In this document: positions 30,252 to 56,314 of the stretch, in pieces
How the letters are laid out: each line of letters starts with the position of its first letter
Position numbering within the stretch: position 1 is the stretch's first letter
Assembly: GCA_025360745.1 (NCBI GenBank)
Contig: JANYBP010000019.1
Span: forward strand, 1-56,314
DNA length: 56,314 bases
Source of the DNA: a bacterium
Lineage (GTDB): Bacteria > Verrucomicrobiota > Kiritimatiellia > CAIKKV01 > CAIYGI01
Direction of reading: 5' to 3'
Made by a program: the position numbers and the translations under genes
Notes under the pieces: generated by a model
What the model was told of the DNA's origin: nothing
Databases searched by the model: none
The model's input: the letters and a program-made list of their open reading frames with translations, nothing else

Positions 30252-30382
30252 GCGTTCTTTCCCTCGAATCTAGACCCGCCCCGTTCAGGCAGGCAAGCAA
30301 GCAATCTTACGCAACCCCGCCCCCCCGCGTCCAGCGCCTTCTTGGCGCCCTGATCCTCGCATCCTCGCCTAACGTCGTTCCG

Positions 30383-30557
30383 ACATTCCATCCATAAGCA
30401 TTTCGCCTTGCGCCCACGCGGCGGCAGAGGCCTGCCGCCCTCCAGAAGAATCCTCTAGCATGTCTCGATGACGTTCCATCCATAAGCATTTCGCCTTGCG
30501 CCACGCGGCGGCAGAGGCCTGCCGCCCTCCAGAAGAATCCTCCAGCATGTCTCGATG
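30383..30557. repeat. Tandem duplication of an 87-88-bp unit
   Basis: Two nearly identical direct copies lie at 30383-30470 and 30471-30557, differing at a handful of positions (ACATTCC versus ACGTTCC, TCTAGC versus CCAGC and one indel). Each unit holds GCATTTCGCC, CCACGCGGCGGC and a hairpin GGCGGCAG/CTGCCGCC followed by CTCCA. Parts match the terminal repeats of the element at 52830-52934. Confidence 0.85.
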
Positions 30558-30615
30558 ACTTTCCTTGGAGGGCGACGGGCCTCCGTCGCCGCGTGGGCGT
30601 AGGGCGAAAGACTTG
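30558..30615. repeat. REP-like hairpin and end of a MITE-like element
   Basis: TGGAGGGCGACGGGCCTCCGTCGCC forms (shown as stem GGCGACGG/CCGTCGCC) a hairpin flanked by TGGAG. GCGTGGGCGTAGGGCGAAAG after it is the inverted counterpart of the GCATTTCGCC end in the tandem units. The same hairpin, reversed, occurs at 52850-52877. Confidence 0.65.
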
Positions 30616-44006: not shown

Positions 44007-44124
44007 AAGGAAAGAACGCGAACTTTATCGAATTCCCGGCGCCATGGGAAGGGAAAAGGTGCGCGAATGAAGATTTTTAACGCAGAGGCGCGGCAGCTAC
44101 CGATCCGAACACCGAACACTTTCT

Positions 44125-45951
44125 TCACAAGGCATGCGCCACCATGAACTGGCGGTAGAGCCGGGAGTAGAGGCCGCCGAGGCGCATGAGCTGGTGGTGG
44201 GCGCCGCGTTCGACGATGCGGCCCTGGTCGAGCACGAGCACCTGATGGGCGTTACGGATGGTGCTCAGACGGTGGGCGACAACGAAGCTGGTGCGGCCGG
44301 CCAGCAGTTTGTCGAGGGCGATCTGCAGGCGGGCCTCGGTCAGGGAGTCCACCGAGCTGGTGGCCTCGTCGAGAATCAGAATACGCGGATCGGCCAGCAT
44401 CGCGCGGGTGAAGCAGATCAGTTGGCGCTGCCCCAGCGAGAGTCCGACGCCCAATTCCCCGACGGGCGTATGCAGGCCGTTGGGCAGGGCCTCGAAAACA
44501 TCCAGGCAATCCAGCCGCCGCGCCGCCTCGCGCACTTCGTCCTCGCTGGCGGAGGGCCGGCCGATCAGCAGATTGTCCAGCACATTGCCAGAAAAGAGAA
44601 AATTCTGCTGCAGCACAATGCCCATGCGGCGGCGCAGCGATTCGCCCCGGATGGCGGAGATGGGCGTGTCGTCCATCAGTATTTCACCGGCCTGGGGCAG
44701 GTAGAACTTGGCGATCAGATTGACGATCGTCGTCTTGCCGCTGCCGGTCGGGCCGACCAGGGCCACCGTCTGTCCGGCCTCGGCCACGAAGTTTATGTCG
44801 CGCAGCACCGGCCGTTCGGGCTTGTAGGCAAAATGCACACCGCGGAACTCCACGCGTCCGCGCAGCGACGGCAGGTCGCGCGCCGTGGGCGCGTCCTGCC
44901 AGTCGGGACGGGTGTCCAAAAACCGGAAGACCCGTTCCGCGCCGACCATGGCCGTCAGCGCATGATTGTAAAGGTTGGCCAGGGACGAGACCGGCCCGAA
45001 GAAGTTGTTCGACAGGAAGAAGAAGAGGATCAGGCTGCCAATCGTCATCGGCGCCGCGGCGTGCAGCGCGAGCCAGCCGCCCAGCACGATCAGTACGGCC
45101 AGGAAGACCTGACTGTTGAAATCCATCAACGGCAGAAAAACTCCCTCCACGCGGGTCGTGCGGACGTTGTATTCGCTGTGGTCCAGGACCAGTTCGCGGA
45201 AGAGATCGGCGTTCATGTCCTGCCGCGAGAAGCCCTGCGTGACCCGCACGCCGCGCACCGACTCGGCCACCGTGGCGGTCACGCGGCTGAAACTTTCCTG
45301 CGACTCGCGGTAGGCCCGGCTCAGGCGTCCGCGGAAGCGCCGGTTGATTCCCCACAGGACCGGCACCATGCAGAGCATAACCAGGAACAGCCGCCAGTCG
45401 TACCAGGCCATCAAGCAGGCCGCGATCAGCATCTGGCCCAACTGCACCATCGCCACAAAGACCACGTTCTGCGCGCCCACGCGCACGGCCTCGGCATCGG
45501 AGGTGAAACGGCTGATGATGCTGCCCAGGCGCATGCGGCTGAAATAGCCCATCGGCATTTCCATCAGGTGGCGGAAGAGGTCGCGCCGCAGGTCATGCAC
45601 CACCGTCTCGCCCAGGTTCTGCGCGATCCGCTGGCGGTAGACCAGGGTCAGTTCGGTCAGGGCCGCGAAGGCCAGGTAGCCCAGGCTGGCGGCCAGGATC
45701 ACAATACCGCGCCCCGAGGCCACGGGACCGTTGGCGACCGCGCCCAGCCCCCAGGACAAGAGCGGCAATTGCGCGGCGCGCAGAACGACCAGCACGAAGA
45801 GGCGCGTGCGCTGCGCGCGGTAGGGGCGAGTGTAACCAAAGAGGCGCAGGAAAAGCCCCATTTGCAAGGGCCGGTTTTCGGTTGGATAGTCCCGTTCGCG
45901 CGAAATAAAGGTCAGCGCGGAGGGACGGCGGGGGGCGGATGACGGCGTCAT
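44125..45951 (-). CDS. ABC exporter subunit 2 (canonical ATP site donor)
   Basis: 608-aa half-transporter: six-helix exporter membrane domain (about residues 30-310), then ATPase. Walker A is GPTGSGKTT, Walker B LILDEATSSVD with the catalytic glutamate intact, and the H-loop is VVAHRLSTI. The signature motif is altered to LSLGQ instead of LSGGQ. ATG 45951 overlaps the stop of the partner gene by four bases. The long frame from 47508 is a shadow of that gene. It pairs with the 45948-47822 product; substrate unknown (lipid or drug type). Confidence 0.92.
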   Translation of the reverse strand: MTPSSAPRRPSALTFISRERDYPTENRPLQMGLFLRLFGYTRPYRAQRTRLFVLVVLRAAQLPLLSWGLGAVANGPVASGRGIVILAASLGYLAFAALTELTLVYRQRIAQNLGETVVHDLRRDLFRHLMEMPMGYFSRMRLGSIISRFTSDAEAVRVGAQNVVFVAMVQLGQMLIAACLMAWYDWRLFLVMLCMVPVLWGINRRFRGRLSRAYRESQESFSRVTATVAESVRGVRVTQGFSRQDMNADLFRELVLDHSEYNVRTTRVEGVFLPLMDFNSQVFLAVLIVLGGWLALHAAAPMTIGSLILFFFLSNNFFGPVSSLANLYNHALTAMVGAERVFRFLDTRPDWQDAPTARDLPSLRGRVEFRGVHFAYKPERPVLRDINFVAEAGQTVALVGPTGSGKTTIVNLIAKFYLPQAGEILMDDTPISAIRGESLRRRMGIVLQQNFLFSGNVLDNLLIGRPSASEDEVREAARRLDCLDVFEALPNGLHTPVGELGVGLSLGQRQLICFTRAMLADPRILILDEATSSVDSLTEARLQIALDKLLAGRTSFVVAHRLSTIRNAHQVLVLDQGRIVERGAHHQLMRLGGLYSRLYRQFMVAHAL

Positions 45952-47822
45952 GCGATCCCTCCCCCGCACGACGGCGGCGGCGCCTGTTCCTCGTCGCCGG
46001 TCTGCAATCGGGCGCTGCGCCGGTAGTGTCCCTTGACGAGCATCAACTCGTCGTGTGTGCCGATCTGTTCGATGCGTCCGCGATGCAGCACCACGATGCG
46101 ATCCGCCCGCCGCAGGGCGCTGATGCGGTTCGTGACCAGCAGCGTCGTGCGCCCCCGCATGGCGCCTTCGATGGCATCCAGGATTTCCCGTTCCGTCTCC
46201 GCATCCACGGCGGCCGTCGGATCGTCCAGCAGCAGGATCGGCGGATCGAGCAGGATGGCCCGCGCAATGGCCAGGCGCTGCCGCTGACCGCCCGAGAGGT
46301 CGCCACCGGCCTCGCTCAGCACGGTGTCGTAACCCTTGGGCAGGCGCTCGATGAACTCGTGCGCCGAGGCCAGACGGGCGGCCTGCTCGATGCGCTCGCG
46401 GCTGGCGTCGGGCGCGCCGAAGGAGATATTGGCCGCGACAGTGTTGCTGAAAAGGAAGCTTTCCTGGAAGACGATGCCCACCTGCCGCCGCAGATCCTCC
46501 AGCGAGATCCGCCGCACATCCACGTCGTCCACCAGCAGCCGCCCGCCGGTAACGTCGTAAAAACGCGGAATCAGGCTCAGCAGCGTGCTTTTGCCGGAGC
46601 CCATCGTGCCTAAAATGCCCATGCAACTGCCCGCCGGGATGTCGAGTGTAATGCCGGTCAGCACCGGCGCGCCGGGCTCGTACTCGAACGTGGCATTCTC
46701 GAACTGGACGCGGCCCAGCAGGCGGGGCTTGCGTATCGCCCGCGGATGGGACTGGACCTCCGCCGGCGCGTCGAGAATCTCGAAGACCCGCCGCGCCGCC
46801 GCCAGACTCTGCTGCACGCTGTCGGTGATCGTCGTGATATTGTTGACCTGTCCGGAAAAACGCTGCAGCAGGCCGAGGAAGACGATCAGCCCCGAGCCCA
46901 GCGCCAGCTCGTCGCGCATCACCAGCCAGCCGCCGTAGCCCAGCAGAATGGCGACGCTCAGGTGCGAAACCAGGTTGACCGAGGGCGAGTAGCGGCTGAC
47001 CAGGCGGAAAATGCCGCGTTTCTGATCGAGCACGGCCCGGTTGGCCGCGGCAAAACGCTGCTCTTCCTCCTTTTCGCGGGCAAACCCCTTGATCACCTGC
47101 ACACCCTGGATGGCTTCGCTCAAGCCGAGAATCATGCGATCCACGCGCTCCCGGTCGGCCATGTAGGCCGGCCGCACGGTGCGGGCAAAACGTCTGGAAA
47201 TGACGGCCATCAGCGGCAACGGCGCCAGGCAGGCCAGCATCAGGCGCGGACAAAGTTGCGCCATGTAGGCCGCATAGAAGGCCAGCGAGATCAGCAGGAT
47301 CAAGGTCTGAATCACGACCCCGTCCACAAACAGCCGCACCGACTGCACGTCGCCGATCACGCGGTTGATCAACGTGCCGCTGACGTTGTCGTCGAAAAAG
47401 CGGAAACTCAGCCGCTGCAGCTTGTCGTAAATCCTCGCCCGCAGGTCCACCACGATCCCGCGCTGCACCAGGTGGACATTCGCCAGACTGTACTGATAGG
47501 TCAGCCACCCGCGCAGCACGGCCATCGCCACCACGGCCGCCGCCAGCGCCGCCAGCGCCAGCATATCCGGCCAGCCGGCCGGGGGCGTCAAGCCGAACGG
47601 CCAGTGCGGCACGCGGGCCGTGGGAACCAACTGCCGGCGGATATAGTCAATGCCGATGCCGGTCAGGCCCAGAGCGCTGAGACTCAACGCCAACAGCGTC
47701 ACCTGCAGCGCGATCAAACGCAGACAGCCCAGACGGTAATGCCAGGCCAGTCCCAGCAGCCGACGCACAATAGCGCCGTTGGTAAGTTCGGACGTTTCGG
47801 ATGCGGTGTTGAGTTCGGTCAT
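45948..47822 (-). CDS. ABC exporter subunit 1 (degenerate ATP site donor)
   Basis: 624-aa half-transporter with an exporter-type membrane domain and ATPase. Walker A is GTMGSGKST and the signature LSGGQRQRL is canonical. Walker B reads LLLDDPTAAVD, with Asp replacing the catalytic Glu, and the H-loop reads LLVTNRISAL, with Asn replacing His. Combined with the altered signature of subunit 2, this gives one degenerate and one canonical ATP site, as in heterodimeric exporters such as TM287/288 and BmrCD. First gene of the two; an octamer array lies 60 bases upstream of its ATG. Confidence 0.92.
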   Translation of the reverse strand: MTELNTASETSELTNGAIVRRLLGLAWHYRLGCLRLIALQVTLLALSLSALGLTGIGIDYIRRQLVPTARVPHWPFGLTPPAGWPDMLALAALAAAVVAMAVLRGWLTYQYSLANVHLVQRGIVVDLRARIYDKLQRLSFRFFDDNVSGTLINRVIGDVQSVRLFVDGVVIQTLILLISLAFYAAYMAQLCPRLMLACLAPLPLMAVISRRFARTVRPAYMADRERVDRMILGLSEAIQGVQVIKGFAREKEEEQRFAAANRAVLDQKRGIFRLVSRYSPSVNLVSHLSVAILLGYGGWLVMRDELALGSGLIVFLGLLQRFSGQVNNITTITDSVQQSLAAARRVFEILDAPAEVQSHPRAIRKPRLLGRVQFENATFEYEPGAPVLTGITLDIPAGSCMGILGTMGSGKSTLLSLIPRFYDVTGGRLLVDDVDVRRISLEDLRRQVGIVFQESFLFSNTVAANISFGAPDASRERIEQAARLASAHEFIERLPKGYDTVLSEAGGDLSGGQRQRLAIARAILLDPPILLLDDPTAAVDAETEREILDAIEGAMRGRTTLLVTNRISALRRADRIVVLHRGRIEQIGTHDELMLVKGHYRRSARLQTGDEEQAPPPSCGGGIA

Positions 47823-47884
47823 GAAAGCGCGCCGTTCGCGGAATACTTTATCACACCAAACCGGCCATTGTCAGGAAGGGAGGG

Positions 47885-47964
47885 GTGAATCGGTGAGTCG
47901 GTGAGTCGGTGAGTCGGTGAGTCGGTGAATCGGTGAGTCGGTGAGCCGGTGAGTCGGTAAGGCG
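47885..47964. repeat. GTGAGTCG octamer array, ten units
   Basis: Ten tandem 8-mers of consensus GTGAGTCG with variants GTGAATCG, GTGAGCCG and GTAAGGCG. It lies in the spacer upstream of ABC exporter subunit 1, in a region that otherwise holds no gene. The same octamer builds the 24-unit array at 54487-54678. Confidence 0.92.
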
Positions 47965-48070
47965 GGGAGGCGGGGAGCCTTTTTCCACGTGCTGCTCTGC
48001 GAAGTAGCGCTTCGCAGAGTTGCAAGAACATTCTTCCCAAAAGGGGTTCTTCCGGGTTTTCAGCGGGAAA

Positions 48071-48292
48071 ATTCATTGGCCTTTCGCAATACGTGTGAAG
48101 CGAAGACAACGACTAAGCGAGTCGACTAAGTGTAACCGACTAAGGGTGGGACTAAGTGTCAACATTTGCTCTTGTTGCCCCACACTTAGTCACACACTTA
48201 GTCGGTTACGCTTAGTCCCACACACTTAGTCGCTCATTTCCGTTATCTGTCATGCCGCGTTCCTCAATAGAAAACCGCACGTAAATCCCGGA
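48071..48292. repeat. GACTAAG inverted-array element, copy at 48 kb
   Basis: After ATTCATTGGCC and GTGTGAAGCGAAGACAAC come GACTAAG units at about 14-nt period (48111 onward). An arm of 36 bases (48124-48159) is repeated inverted at 48182-48217 with about three mismatches. The loop holds CAACATTTGCTCTTGTTG, itself a small stem. A conserved tail, GCGTTCCTCAATAGAA and AATCCCGGA, closes the element. It covers most of the 556-bp spacer before the kinase gene. Confidence 0.85.
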
Positions 48293-48378
48293 TGCGCTCC
48301 AAAAGGCAAGGCGCATCGTAAGAACCAAGAATTTGGGCTTTTCACCATCCCATGGCTTGCGCTAGAATTGCCGCTCAG

Positions 48379-52940: not shown

Positions 52941-53165
52941 TTGGTACTACATGTGAAGCGAAGCCAACGACTAAGCGAGTCGACTAAGTATAACAGACTA
53001 AGTGTAACCGACTAAGAGTGGGACTAAGTGTCAACATTTACTCTTGTTGCCCCACACTTAGTCCCACTCTTAGTCGGTTACGCTTAGTCACTCCCACTTA
53101 GTCGCTCCCTCTCCGCTGTCGATTACACCGCGTTCCTCAATAGAATACCGCATGTTAATCCCGGA
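52941..53165. repeat. GACTAAG inverted-array element, copy at 53 kb
   Basis: TTGGTACTACATGTGAAGCG and AAGCCAACGACTAAG open the element. The arm at 52996-53031 (units GACTAAGTGTAACC, GACTAAGAGTGG, GACTAAGTGT) is repeated inverted at 53054-53089 with 35 of 36 bases matching. The loop has CAACATTTACTCTTGTTG. The tail GCGTTCCTCAATAGAATACC matches the 48-kb copy to 53165. The whole spacer of 454 bp before the TMTC-like gene holds no gene. Confidence 0.87.
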
Positions 53166-53224: not shown

Positions 53225-55183
53225 TCACTGCTTCCCCCCCGCCCCCGCCCGCCGTAAATTATTCAGCGAGGGCGTGTGCCGCGGATCGATGCGCAGCGCC
53301 TCCCGCCAGAGCGCCACCGCGCGCGGCAGATCGCCCTGACGCGCGAAACAAACGCCCAGTAGCGAACGAGCGTCGGCATTGAAGGGATCCAGGCCGGCGG
53401 TACGATCCAGATAGAGCGCCGCCTCGGAAAGTTTTCCGGCCTGGAAACAGGCGTTGCCCAGGTTCTGGCAGACCTCCGCCTCGTCGCTCTGCCCGGGCAC
53501 CAGCGCCCGCCGCAGGTGCGCGATCGCTTCGTCGTAACGTCCCGTCCGCGCCAGCAGCACGCCGAGGCCCTTGTGAATGGCGGGATGCCGGGGATCGATC
53601 GCCAGCGCGGCCTGATACTGCGCCATGGCCTCCGGATAGCGCCGCTCGTCGGTCAAGGCCTGCCCGAGTCCCATGTGCGCCCTGTAGTTGCGCTGCGTCA
53701 CCGTCAGCGCGTGCCGCCAGAGCGTAATCGGTCCATGCCAGACCGCCGCCTGACGCCAGGTCAGCGCCATCAGGCTGCCCAGGGCCAAAAAAACGGCCGG
53801 CCATACGTAACGCGCCGCCGTCCGCGCCGCCGCCGTCCCGGCGGCGGACTTCGCGGCCAGGCGGGCAACCAATTCCTGTCCGCCCCAGGCCAGCATCATG
53901 AACACGCCCAGCAGCGGCAGGTAGGTGTAGCGGTCGGCGCGCGCCTGCTCGCCAACCTGCACAAGGCCGATCACCGGCGCCAGCATACCCAGGAAGAAAA
54001 ACCAGCCCACCGCGAACCAGGGCCGCGCGCGCAATTGCCAGAGCGAGAGCGCCGTGACCGCCGACAGCAACAATGCCGCGCCCGTCAATGCGCCCCAGGG
54101 GATGCCGGCATCGGCCACGTAAGGGTAGAAAGCGCAGAGGCCCGCCGGCCAGAGCGCGTCCCGCAGATAGTCCGCGCAGGCCAGCAGCGCATTCGCCAGC
54201 CGCACGCCCATCGGCAAGGCCGCGTACGACACCACCGCTTCGCCGGCTTGCACGCGATATGTCACCCAGGCCAGGGCCGCCGACAGCGCAAAGAAGGGCA
54301 GCTTCTCCAGCGCCAGCCGCCCGGCGCGCCGCCAGGAATCGCCCCAGCGCCAGCGCGCCAGCGGCCAGATGTCCAGCAACAACATCACCGCCGGCAACGT
54401 GACGAGCATGGGCTTGGAGGCCAGGCCGAGGGAGAAGAGGAGGAGACTGAGGAAGTAGTAAAGTAGTGAGTGGTGAGTGGTGAGTGGTGAGTCGGTGAGT
54501 CGGTGAGTCGGTGGGTCGGTAAATCGGTGAGTCGGTGAGTCGGTGAGTCGGTGAGTCGGTGGGTCGGTGAGTCGGTGAGTCGGTGGGTCGGTGAGTCGGT
54601 GAGTCGGTGGGTCGGTGAGTCGGTGAGTCGGTGAGTCGGTGAGTCGGTGAGTCGGTGGGTCGGTGAGTCGGTGAATCGGTTGAGCGTTGAACGTTTTGAT
54701 CGGTGAGAGGAGAAGACGGCTGCGCGCGTAGGCCAGCAGCGACGCCAGACCCAGGCAGGCGCTGAGCACGTCCTTGCGTTCGGAGATCCAGGCCACCGAC
54801 TCGACGTGCAGCGGATGCAGGCCGAAAAGCGCGGCCACCAGCGCCGACGGCCAGAGCCGGCCGGTCAGCACGCGCAGCAGCAGAAAGACCAGCAGCGTGT
54901 TGATCAGATGCAAGGCCAGGTTGACCAGATGATGCCCGCCCGCCCAGCGGCCGAAAGACCGCCAGTCGAGCATGTGCGAAATCCAGGTCAGCGGATGCCA
55001 GTTGCTGTTGATCGTGGCCGTCAGCGCCCACTTCACGGTGTCCGCATTCACCCCTTGCTGGATGAAGCGGTTATGCACGACGTAAACATCGTCGTCCAGA
55101 TCCACGAATCCGAAACCGGCGACCTGCAGGTAGGGCAGCGCGGTCAGCAACAAAAGGCCGATGGCGACGAGCAACGTGATCAT
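53225..55183 (-). CDS. TMTC-like membrane protein with TPR domain, interrupted by an octamer-encoded insert
   Basis: About 652 aa from ATG 55183; the frame is open to 55318. N-terminal helices carry VDLDDDVYVVHNRF, NWHPLTWISHMLDWRSF, GGHHLVNLALHLIN and LFGLHPLHVESVAWISERKD, the signature of TMTC/GT-C-like TPR proteins. About 80 residues rich in HRLTDSPT repeats then separate AYARSR from YYFLSLLLFSLGLASKPMLV, where relatives have a short loop. The C-terminal third is TPR (LGQALTDERRYPEAMAQY, LGVLLARTGRYDEAIAHL). A membrane glycosyltransferase or complex scaffold is likely. The insert is coded by the 8-bp repeat and is discussed as a finding. Confidence 0.85.
   Translation of the reverse strand: MITLLVAIGLLLLTALPYLQVAGFGFVDLDDDVYVVHNRFIQQGVNADTVKWALTATINSNWHPLTWISHMLDWRSFGRWAGGHHLVNLALHLINTLLVFLLLRVLTGRLWPSALVAALFGLHPLHVESVAWISERKDVLSACLGLASLLAYARSRLLLSPIKTFNAQPIHRLTDPPTHRLTDSPTHRLTDPPTHRLTDPPTHRLTDPPTHRLTDSPTHRFTDPPTHRLTDSPLTTHHSLLYYFLSLLLFSLGLASKPMLVTLPAVMLLLDIWPLARWRWGDSWRRAGRLALEKLPFFALSAALAWVTYRVQAGEAVVSYAALPMGVRLANALLACADYLRDALWPAGLCAFYPYVADAGIPWGALTGAALLLSAVTALSLWQLRARPWFAVGWFFFLGMLAPVIGLVQVGEQARADRYTYLPLLGVFMMLAWGGQELVARLAAKSAAGTAAARTAARYVWPAVFLALGSLMALTWRQAAVWHGPITLWRHALTVTQRNYRAHMGLGQALTDERRYPEAMAQYQAALAIDPRHPAIHKGLGVLLARTGRYDEAIAHLRRALVPGQSDEAEVCQNLGNACFQAGKLSEAALYLDRTAGLDPFNADARSLLGVCFARQGDLPRAVALWREALRIDPRHTPSLNNLRRAGAGGKQ
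54487..54678. repeat. GTGAGTCG octamer array inside the TMTC-like gene, 24 units
   Basis: Exactly 24 tandem 8-mers, 192 bases, of consensus GTGAGTCG with variants GTGGGTCG, GTAAATCG and GTGAATCG, preceded by three GTGAGTG heptamers. On the coding (minus) strand three octamers encode eight residues, HRLTDSPT. Because 24 is a multiple of three the reading frame is kept. Confidence 0.95.
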
Positions 55184-55353
55184 TCTGCCTCGCCGCGCCG
55201 GCGACGGGGTGGCGGGGGCCGCCGCGTCACGGGCGCTTTTTGCCGACGACCCCGCCCGCGCCACCGCGTCACCGCGGCGGCTACGCAGAGGGGGCGGACG
55301 TCCTTCTATACGTTCCATGCGTTGGGGCTTCCGGGTTTTGCGCGTGAATAGTC

Positions 55354-55496
55354 ATTGGCCTTGGGTACTACATGTGAAGCGAAACCAACCTGTCTGTGCG
55401 TATCTGTCTGCGTGCGTACACGCACAGACCGGCACGCAGACAGGCGACTAAGCGAGTCGACTAAGTGTAACCGACTAAGGGTGGGACTAAGTGTCA
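55354..55496. repeat. GACTAAG element, half copy with a 56-bp palindromic insert
   Basis: ATTGGCCTTGGGTACTACAT and GTGAAGCGAAACCAAC open it as in other copies. Then a 56-bp block (55389-55444) built of CTGTCTG units and their inverse interrupts, followed by CGACTAAGCGAGTCGACTAAG and units up to ACTAAGTGTCAC. The inverted right arm is missing: the sequence runs directly into the S23 gene, whose TAG stop (55489-55487) is read from the last ACTAAG. Confidence 0.8.
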
Positions 55497-56182
55497 CGGT
55501 GTGCGACCTTTGAGAGTGACGTGAGCATGGCCGCGATGCATCTCAACATTTCGCGTCCTTCTTCTACCCGGGACGGTTCCGCTGAACCATTGGCCGTTGC
55601 CAGATCTACAAGTGATGCAGACTGGACTGTCGCTTTGTATGCGATGCAAAGAAACTTCGCCTGATCGGTACCGCTGAAACGACCATTACCCTCTGCCAAA
55701 TTGAGAACAATAGCAGTCGTTGATGTGTCGAGTTTGGAAAGCAGGTCTGCACTGCACGCGAAAGCTGAGAACATGCTTTCTACCCAACCAGTGAGTCGGA
55801 GCGCTGTCTGATAAACGTTCAGATCCTCATGACTAAACAATCTGCCCTTCTCCGTGCGATACATATCATGATCTTCGCTCACCCGGTTGGCTGTTGTCTT
55901 CCGCATGGCAATGAGGATGCTGACGATCTCGGCCAATAACCTTTTGCCAGGAAAGACAACATGGGTTGCCGAGATTTGCTTTGCGACAAATACATCCAGG
56001 CAAGCGGCGCACTCAAGCGCAGACCCGTTGGCGTGTCCCAAGTAGACAATTCTTTCCTTCGGAGACCACGAACTGCTAGCGTGAGCAATATTGACGAGAA
56101 TGCTCTCTGCTCCACGATCAAGGTGGTCGCATGCCGCAACTCGCCGCGGCAACTCATTCAGCAATTCGCCAGCAATTCGCAT
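55487..56182 (-). CDS. Two-domain four-helix-bundle (S23) protein, edges made by repeats
   Basis: About 231 aa containing two tandem 23S-rRNA-IVS-like four-helix bundles. Domain 1 has LDRGAESILVNIAHASSSWS and GHANGSALECAACLDVF; domain 2 has FSHEDLNVYQTALRLTGWVE, TSTTAIVLNLAEGNGRFSG and QSASLVDLA. S23 proteins are common, small, usually single-domain proteins of unclear function. The likely ATG (56182) lies within the terminal repeat of the MITE, so the original first helix appears lost. The stop lies in the GACTAAG element. The frame stays open to 56254 through the MITE. It may be an altered remnant rather than a working gene. Confidence 0.72.
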   Translation of the reverse strand: MRIAGELLNELPRRVAACDHLDRGAESILVNIAHASSSWSPKERIVYLGHANGSALECAACLDVFVAKQISATHVVFPGKRLLAEIVSILIAMRKTTANRVSEDHDMYRTEKGRLFSHEDLNVYQTALRLTGWVESMFSAFACSADLLSKLDTSTTAIVLNLAEGNGRFSGTDQAKFLCIAYKATVQSASLVDLATANGSAEPSRVEEGREMLRCIAAMLTSLSKVAHRDT

Positions 56183-56314
56183 TATGGCCTCTTGCGCAGG
56201 TCCGGACGACACGGAGGTCGTCCCTCCATTCACGAAAACACCCGTGATTCCCAAGTTTTTGGAGGGACGACCTCCGTGTCGTCCGTATTCTAGAGGCCAT
56301 AATGAGAATTGCTG
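56170..56314. mobile_element. 145-bp MITE-like element, copy 2 (ends at the window edge)
   Basis: Same length and nearly the same sequence as 35937-36081: CAGCAATTCGCATTATGGCC at the left, inner inverted pair around GGACGACACGG, and GGCCATAATGAGAATTGCTG at the right, which is the last base of the window. Immediately left of it CAGCAATTCGC occurs again (56159-56169), a duplicated terminal fragment. It sits over the 5' end of the S23 gene. Confidence 0.85.

Follow-up and report, generated by a model that had tools for sequence, protein, structure and literature searches.

An in-frame octamer array in a membrane-protein gene and a dispersed, strand-polarised family of short tandem repeats

In the 56,314-nucleotide stretch analysed here (the window, which is contig C75 in a draft assembly of 2.99 Mb and 131 contigs), 24 octamers of the GTGAGTCG type lie in frame within a gene for a predicted membrane protein. 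This array appears to belong to a strand-polarised family, dispersed over the genome, of GTGAGTCG octamers together with GTGAGTG and other heptamers, and such arrays are probably slippage-prone 7-8-bp repeats which are tolerated in frame in protein loops and whose frame is held by selection. The strongest support for this reading comes from orthologous gene pairs with frame-keeping length differences and from the sole TsaC gene; it is weakest in that the host gene lacks an orthologue, the assemblies are drafts and in-gene arrays were recognised through open ORFs. When the unit length of a short tandem repeat is not divisible by three, the repeat is commonly interpreted as a frame switch, and the present case is a warning against phase-variation calls made from sequence only. 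Moreover, in-gene arrays, including those of the sole TsaC, offer a natural test of repeat DNA adding probably disordered segments to core enzymes.

The array and its host gene

The features concerned are as follows.

53225-55318, minus strand: host gene of 697 codons, with predicted transmembrane helices and C-terminal TPRs, TMTC/GT-C-like (from the ORF, Pfam and homologues)
54461-54721, minus strand: insert-bearing codons between residues 199 and 287, 87 residues (from alignment with 13 homologues)
54466-54486, plus strand: three GTGAGTG heptamers of a related array family, adjoining the octamer array (from the sequence)
54487-54678, plus strand: octamer array of 24 GTGAGTCG units, coding strand CGACTCAC, giving the HRLTDSPT cycle
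54679-54712, plus strand: low-complexity edge GTTGAGCGTTGAACGTTTTGATCGGTGAGAGG (from the sequence; likeness to a GTTGAAC type judged by eye)
47885-47972, plus strand: second, intergenic array made up of 11 GTGAGTCG-type units, 62 bp upstream of the ABC-transporter gene listed next
45948-47822, minus strand: that ABC-transporter gene, downstream of the second array

Read octet by octet, the main array consists of 24 head-to-tail octamers, of which 17 are exact GTGAGTCG, five GTGGGTCG, one GTAAATCG and one GTGAATCG; the total of 24 depends on the draft assembly. TRF likewise assigns period 8 to an array at 54466-54680 (score 353, 92% matches). Exact period-8 self-matches in the window extend to a run of 39 at most; in 20 sequences simulated with a first-order Markov model the corresponding maximum was 7-10. 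Three-unit periodicity in the order of units, considered as a sign of slippage in 24-bp steps, was not significant in this array (lag-3 permutation P = 0.18). By eye, GTTGAAC-type motifs beside other arrays of the genome resemble the edge at 54679-54712.

The minus-strand ORF of 697 residues stays open straight across the array. Homologues of the host gene are present in 7 of 38 relatives (E<=1e-20, 35-42% identity), the seven being class-level ones, with matches that split at the array, and the interval between residues 199 and 287 measures 8-19 residues in all 13 aligned homologues compared with 87 in the array-bearing protein, which would thus have roughly 70-80 extra residues. An earlier note made from this DNA had described a 24-copy array inserted in frame between segments that adjoin in related proteins, had placed it in an extramembrane loop and had reported the octamer again in a non-coding spacer near 47.9 kb. 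All of this is borne out: none of the 13 aligned homologues has a comparably long loop, the predicted topology puts the insert between two membrane helices, and the spacer holds the 11 intergenic units listed above.

The same note had called the protein TMTC-like, which stands in part. Pfam recognises TPRs in the C-terminal part, and one homologue matches PMT_2 (2.5e-9); no glycosyltransferase model matches the host protein itself, as its N-terminal membrane part gave no credible Pfam match (best E 0.23, below the cut-off) and no curated TMTC/PMT (GT-C) family model matches the membrane domain. The protein is therefore GT-C/TMTC-like by homology only. In most homologues the short loop contains arginines (YVRRP, YARRP, FTRRP), and arginine-bearing loops tend to lie on the cytoplasmic side according to the positive-inside rule, which, along with hydropathy, suggests that the insertion-bearing loop is cytoplasmic.

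On the coding strand the octamer is stop-free in all three frames, and each frame translates into the identical HRLTDSPT cycle, in agreement with the earlier note. The absence of stops follows from the G-rich strand serving as template, and the identity of the cycles from a unit length that shares no factor with three. In the host gene, the coding strand would thereby supply a polar segment, (HRLTD[S/P]PT)n, which is probably disordered, sits within the short loop between two membrane helices and is probably tolerated by the protein. ORFs computed for each unit number reach the normal C-terminus with 21, 24 or 27 units, stop at 305-313 aa with 22 or 25, and with 20, 23 or 26 end in an extended tail read in the wrong frame. 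The statement that 24 copies keep the frame is thus right in that a change of one unit shifts it, but 21 or 27 would serve as well, and what sets the frame is how long the heptamers, the octamers and the low-complexity edge are together, not the 24 alone.

A dispersed family with a strand preference

Comparison within the genus involved two draft genomes, the present one and that of a sister species with about 91% DNA identity (88-94% at most aligned loci) and 98.3% RpoB identity; RpoB identity to other groups is 62.8% for Verrucomicrobium, 55.7% for a Kiritimatiellota MAG and 46-49% for Planctomycetota, which makes Verrucomicrobiota the probable phylum of the genus. In pattern searches and sampled contigs, from which array counts were drawn, GTGAGTCG arrays were numerous in both genomes, as were GTGAGTG heptamer arrays, and a search at two mismatches detected no GTGAGTCG array in any of 37 further genomes from the same order and class. 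The presence of the unit in tandem at many genomic sites is established, as is found for the dispersed Xanthomonas/Nostoc-type family. Among arrays of at least four copies on sampled contigs, period 7 dominates (11/11 in the present genome, 5/6 in the congener and 4/5 in order-level relatives). Comparison of orthologous loci indicates that arrays at several sites other than the host gene predate the split of the two species, and the family would have grown and shrunk across the genus, most likely via replication slippage and unequal recombination. Occurrence of an exact 24-mer in 73 stretches among 85,000 genomes was considered as evidence of a mobile unit and set aside, many of these being runs of only some three units within coding DNA of high GC content. 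Moreover, the DNA of the GTGAGTCG array folded no better than shuffled sequences on either strand, with no secondary structure or quadruplex, and G-tracts of at least three are missing from a unit without GGG.

Arrays of the family are oriented relative to genes. Gene ends were placed with a simple caller based on codon usage. Of the octamer arrays lying no more than 120 bp from such an end, 10 of 10 at 3' ends are sense and 13 of 14 at 5' ends antisense, and heptamer arrays show the same trend (6/8 sense at 3' ends, 6/7 antisense at 5' ends). The G-rich strand is accordingly antisense upstream and sense downstream, again as in the Xanthomonas/Nostoc type. The 3' half of this rule is partly built in, since the G-strand has TGA in every frame and ends those ORFs that enter it; the 5' half is not built in by stop codons. 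True in-gene octamer arrays, namely those in the host gene and in TsaC of both species, are antisense, a fourth case assigned by the caller being an array upstream of a rhomboid-like gene. This array (C53/C28) and one upstream of a cobT-like gene (C37) were at times assigned to the gene by the caller; they sit before the likely ATG and were not counted.

Several further observations concern the sites themselves. At the 5' site of the rhomboid-like gene, an octamer array in one species corresponds to a heptamer array in the other (L033:4680-4807, L151:3227-3286), and an octamer/heptamer swap is also seen upstream of the cobT-like gene (L032, L150). Inverted array pairs flank a shared core at C53:7-354 and C120:7092-7331, and none is present at 54487-54678. 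A gene segment adjoining a tRNA-like sequence, apparently for Arg, has opposite orientations in the two species (L039:7092-8574, L160:4428-6139; L033:1-355), with breakpoints close to inverted octamer arrays, and arrays may mediate rearrangements such as this one. The ABC-transporter genes and the second array (44060-48327) seem to be missing at the matching place of congener contig C81, and so does the array-bearing host gene. The window also contains about three copies of a palindromic intergenic element, ACTAAGTG/CACTTAGT (48118-48235, 52950-53110 and 55440-55500), with more in the congener; an inverted repeat at the contig end, ggacgacctccgtgtcgtcc (56203-56290), a dispersed palindrome with about a dozen congener matches; and an 87-bp unit repeated 2.1 times at 30382-30564.

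Frame-keeping in other genes and alternative explanations

The TsaC/Sua5-LMW-phosphatase fusion gene (PF01300 and PF01451) has a GTGAGTCG array at the same place in both species, with 6 units in one and 10 in the other and an intact frame in each; the TIGR00057 match to TsaC splits at the array, at profile position 72/73-75, and TIGR00057 detected no second TsaC in either genome. Since TsaC, the enzyme that produces the precursor of t6A, is essential in many organisms, its gene is an unlikely place for random frame switching. Direct alignments, which were used since automated spacing modulo three was too noisy at alignment edges, gave differences between species of +21 and +63 nt for heptamer arrays in a UDP-GlcNAc 2-epimerase gene, +108 nt for a heptamer array in an FnlA/Cap8F-type epimerase gene, and +72, +18, +9 and -9 nt in an NTP_transf_5 (nucleotidyltransferase) gene, all in frame in both. 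A VWA-protein gene differs by +63 nt, that is nine heptamers; the shorter allele retains about three, and both alleles are in frame. The congener's FnlA-type gene has an additional, unrelated octamer array, TCGGACCG, also in frame (L210:2896-2935). Further afield, a GT4-type glycosyltransferase gene has 11 exact GTGAGTCG units in Catenulispora pinistramenti and 8 in C. pinisilvae, a difference of 24 bp, and the arrays encode the HRLTDSPT peptide in both. Intergenic arrays differ by, for example, 112, 119 and 91 nt (with an error of one to a few bases), which are whole heptamers and not multiples of three.

Selection would purge frame-breaking length changes in genes and leave intergenic arrays free of this limit; in-gene arrays would then differ by multiples of three bases, the clean cases being three and nine units. 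The earlier note had raised the question of whether array lengths in genes keep to multiples of three: the differences do so in five orthologous gene pairs and the Catenulispora pair, all of them genes other than the host gene. In the sister-species genome no orthologue of the host gene was found, so frame-keeping, observed elsewhere, is something we infer for this gene. As in-gene arrays were recognised through open ORFs, the frame count is biased towards intact genes.

A more active process in this lineage can be proposed tentatively, although it is rather unlikely: acting in an orientation-dependent manner, it might place and lengthen arrays of 7-8-bp units both at the edges of genes and within them. 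If so, it would provide TsaC and other core proteins with new disordered segments, and since 7 and 8 share no factor with three, so that every frame yields one peptide cycle, selection would have to fix no more than the exit frame.

The length-based switch offered by the earlier note, in which adding or losing a single octamer would switch the glycosyltransferase-like membrane protein off or on, is unlikely. The octamer length and the truncation expected with 22 or 25 units suit such a switch, and other array-bearing genes, including the two epimerases, look like surface-polysaccharide genes, a usual target of phase variation. Yet the same array type is in frame in the single TsaC gene detected in either species, the five orthologous pairs and the Catenulispora pair are likewise all in frame, and the switch is left unsupported by them. 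Moreover, one alternative frame gives a long read-through and no clean off state, and interrupted repeat units, which should reduce slippage, occur in the array itself.

Recent insertion of an array-carrying mobile element (MITE- or RPE-like) is quite improbable. The array unit is found at many sites, some with inverted array pairs around a shared core, and heptamer, octamer and GTTGAAC-type edge co-occur at 54466-54712; nevertheless, neither constant ends nor a duplicated target nor an enzyme gene was seen, and local expansion is indicated both by the rhomboid-like site, with its heptamers in one species and octamers in the other, and by VWA alleles that differ by nine heptamers only, the shorter still keeping a few. 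Very improbable indeed is an assembly artefact with a misplaced or miscounted repeat, for although the genome is a 131-contig draft in which contig C53 starts within such an array, and exact repeats within the array region reach 71 bp, the ORF is intact on both flanks with homologous segments, variant units act as anchors, and the same arrays recur at orthologous positions in the sister species, so that doubt from the draft concerns the exact copy number only.

Comparison with known repeat systems

The reading of tolerated, frame-held repeats can be set beside several described systems; a literature search of titles and abstracts found no report of such arrays in Verrucomicrobiota. The hmw1A gene of Haemophilus influenzae also has a short tandem (heptanucleotide) array of variable copy number, which lies in the promoter and tunes expression (PMC8262952), whereas no sign of switching was found for the array at 54487-54678. 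Rickettsia palindromic elements, the known case of selfish DNA of this sort, are repetitive DNA tolerated in frame in unrelated housekeeping genes (PMC10969869, citing Ogata 2000); as described there, they are palindromic mobile elements of about 150 bp, unlike the short tandem arrays without fixed ends seen here. In archaeal Borg elements, in-ORF repeats produce amino-acid repeats that are mostly disordered, some of them rich in P, T and S, and leave the frame unbroken (PMC9879509). Their units are all divisible by three, while those of the present family are 7 or 8 bp, and hence it is the overall length of the array, and not that of its unit, which preserves the frame here.

Lineage-specific heptamer arrays near start codons include the tandem heptanucleotides of Calothrix (cited in PMC4692102) and the TAACTGA arrays of Beggiatoaceae (PMC4679880). 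In the parts of these accounts that were consulted, the units are different, the arrays are mainly intergenic and in-frame arrays in core genes are not described. Heptamers are over-represented in bacteria and have been little studied (PMC4692102). The closest comparison is with the GGGAATC and GGGGA(C/T)T heptamers of Xanthomonas and Nostoc, which are dispersed in arrays of 2-26 units, mostly intergenic and near ORFs, antisense upstream and sense downstream, with some overlapping a stop codon and most positions common to sister species (PMC4692102). The two systems share dispersed short arrays near ORFs and the same two strand preferences (PMC4692102), but the GTGAGTCG arrays are 8-bp and also occur deep inside conserved genes, in frame and with frame-keeping length differences. 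In addition, the GTGAGTCG unit has no G-tract of three and therefore no obvious G-quadruplex. The GTGAGTCG family is thus not a member of the quadruplex-forming one, and works like the Xanthomonas/Nostoc type.
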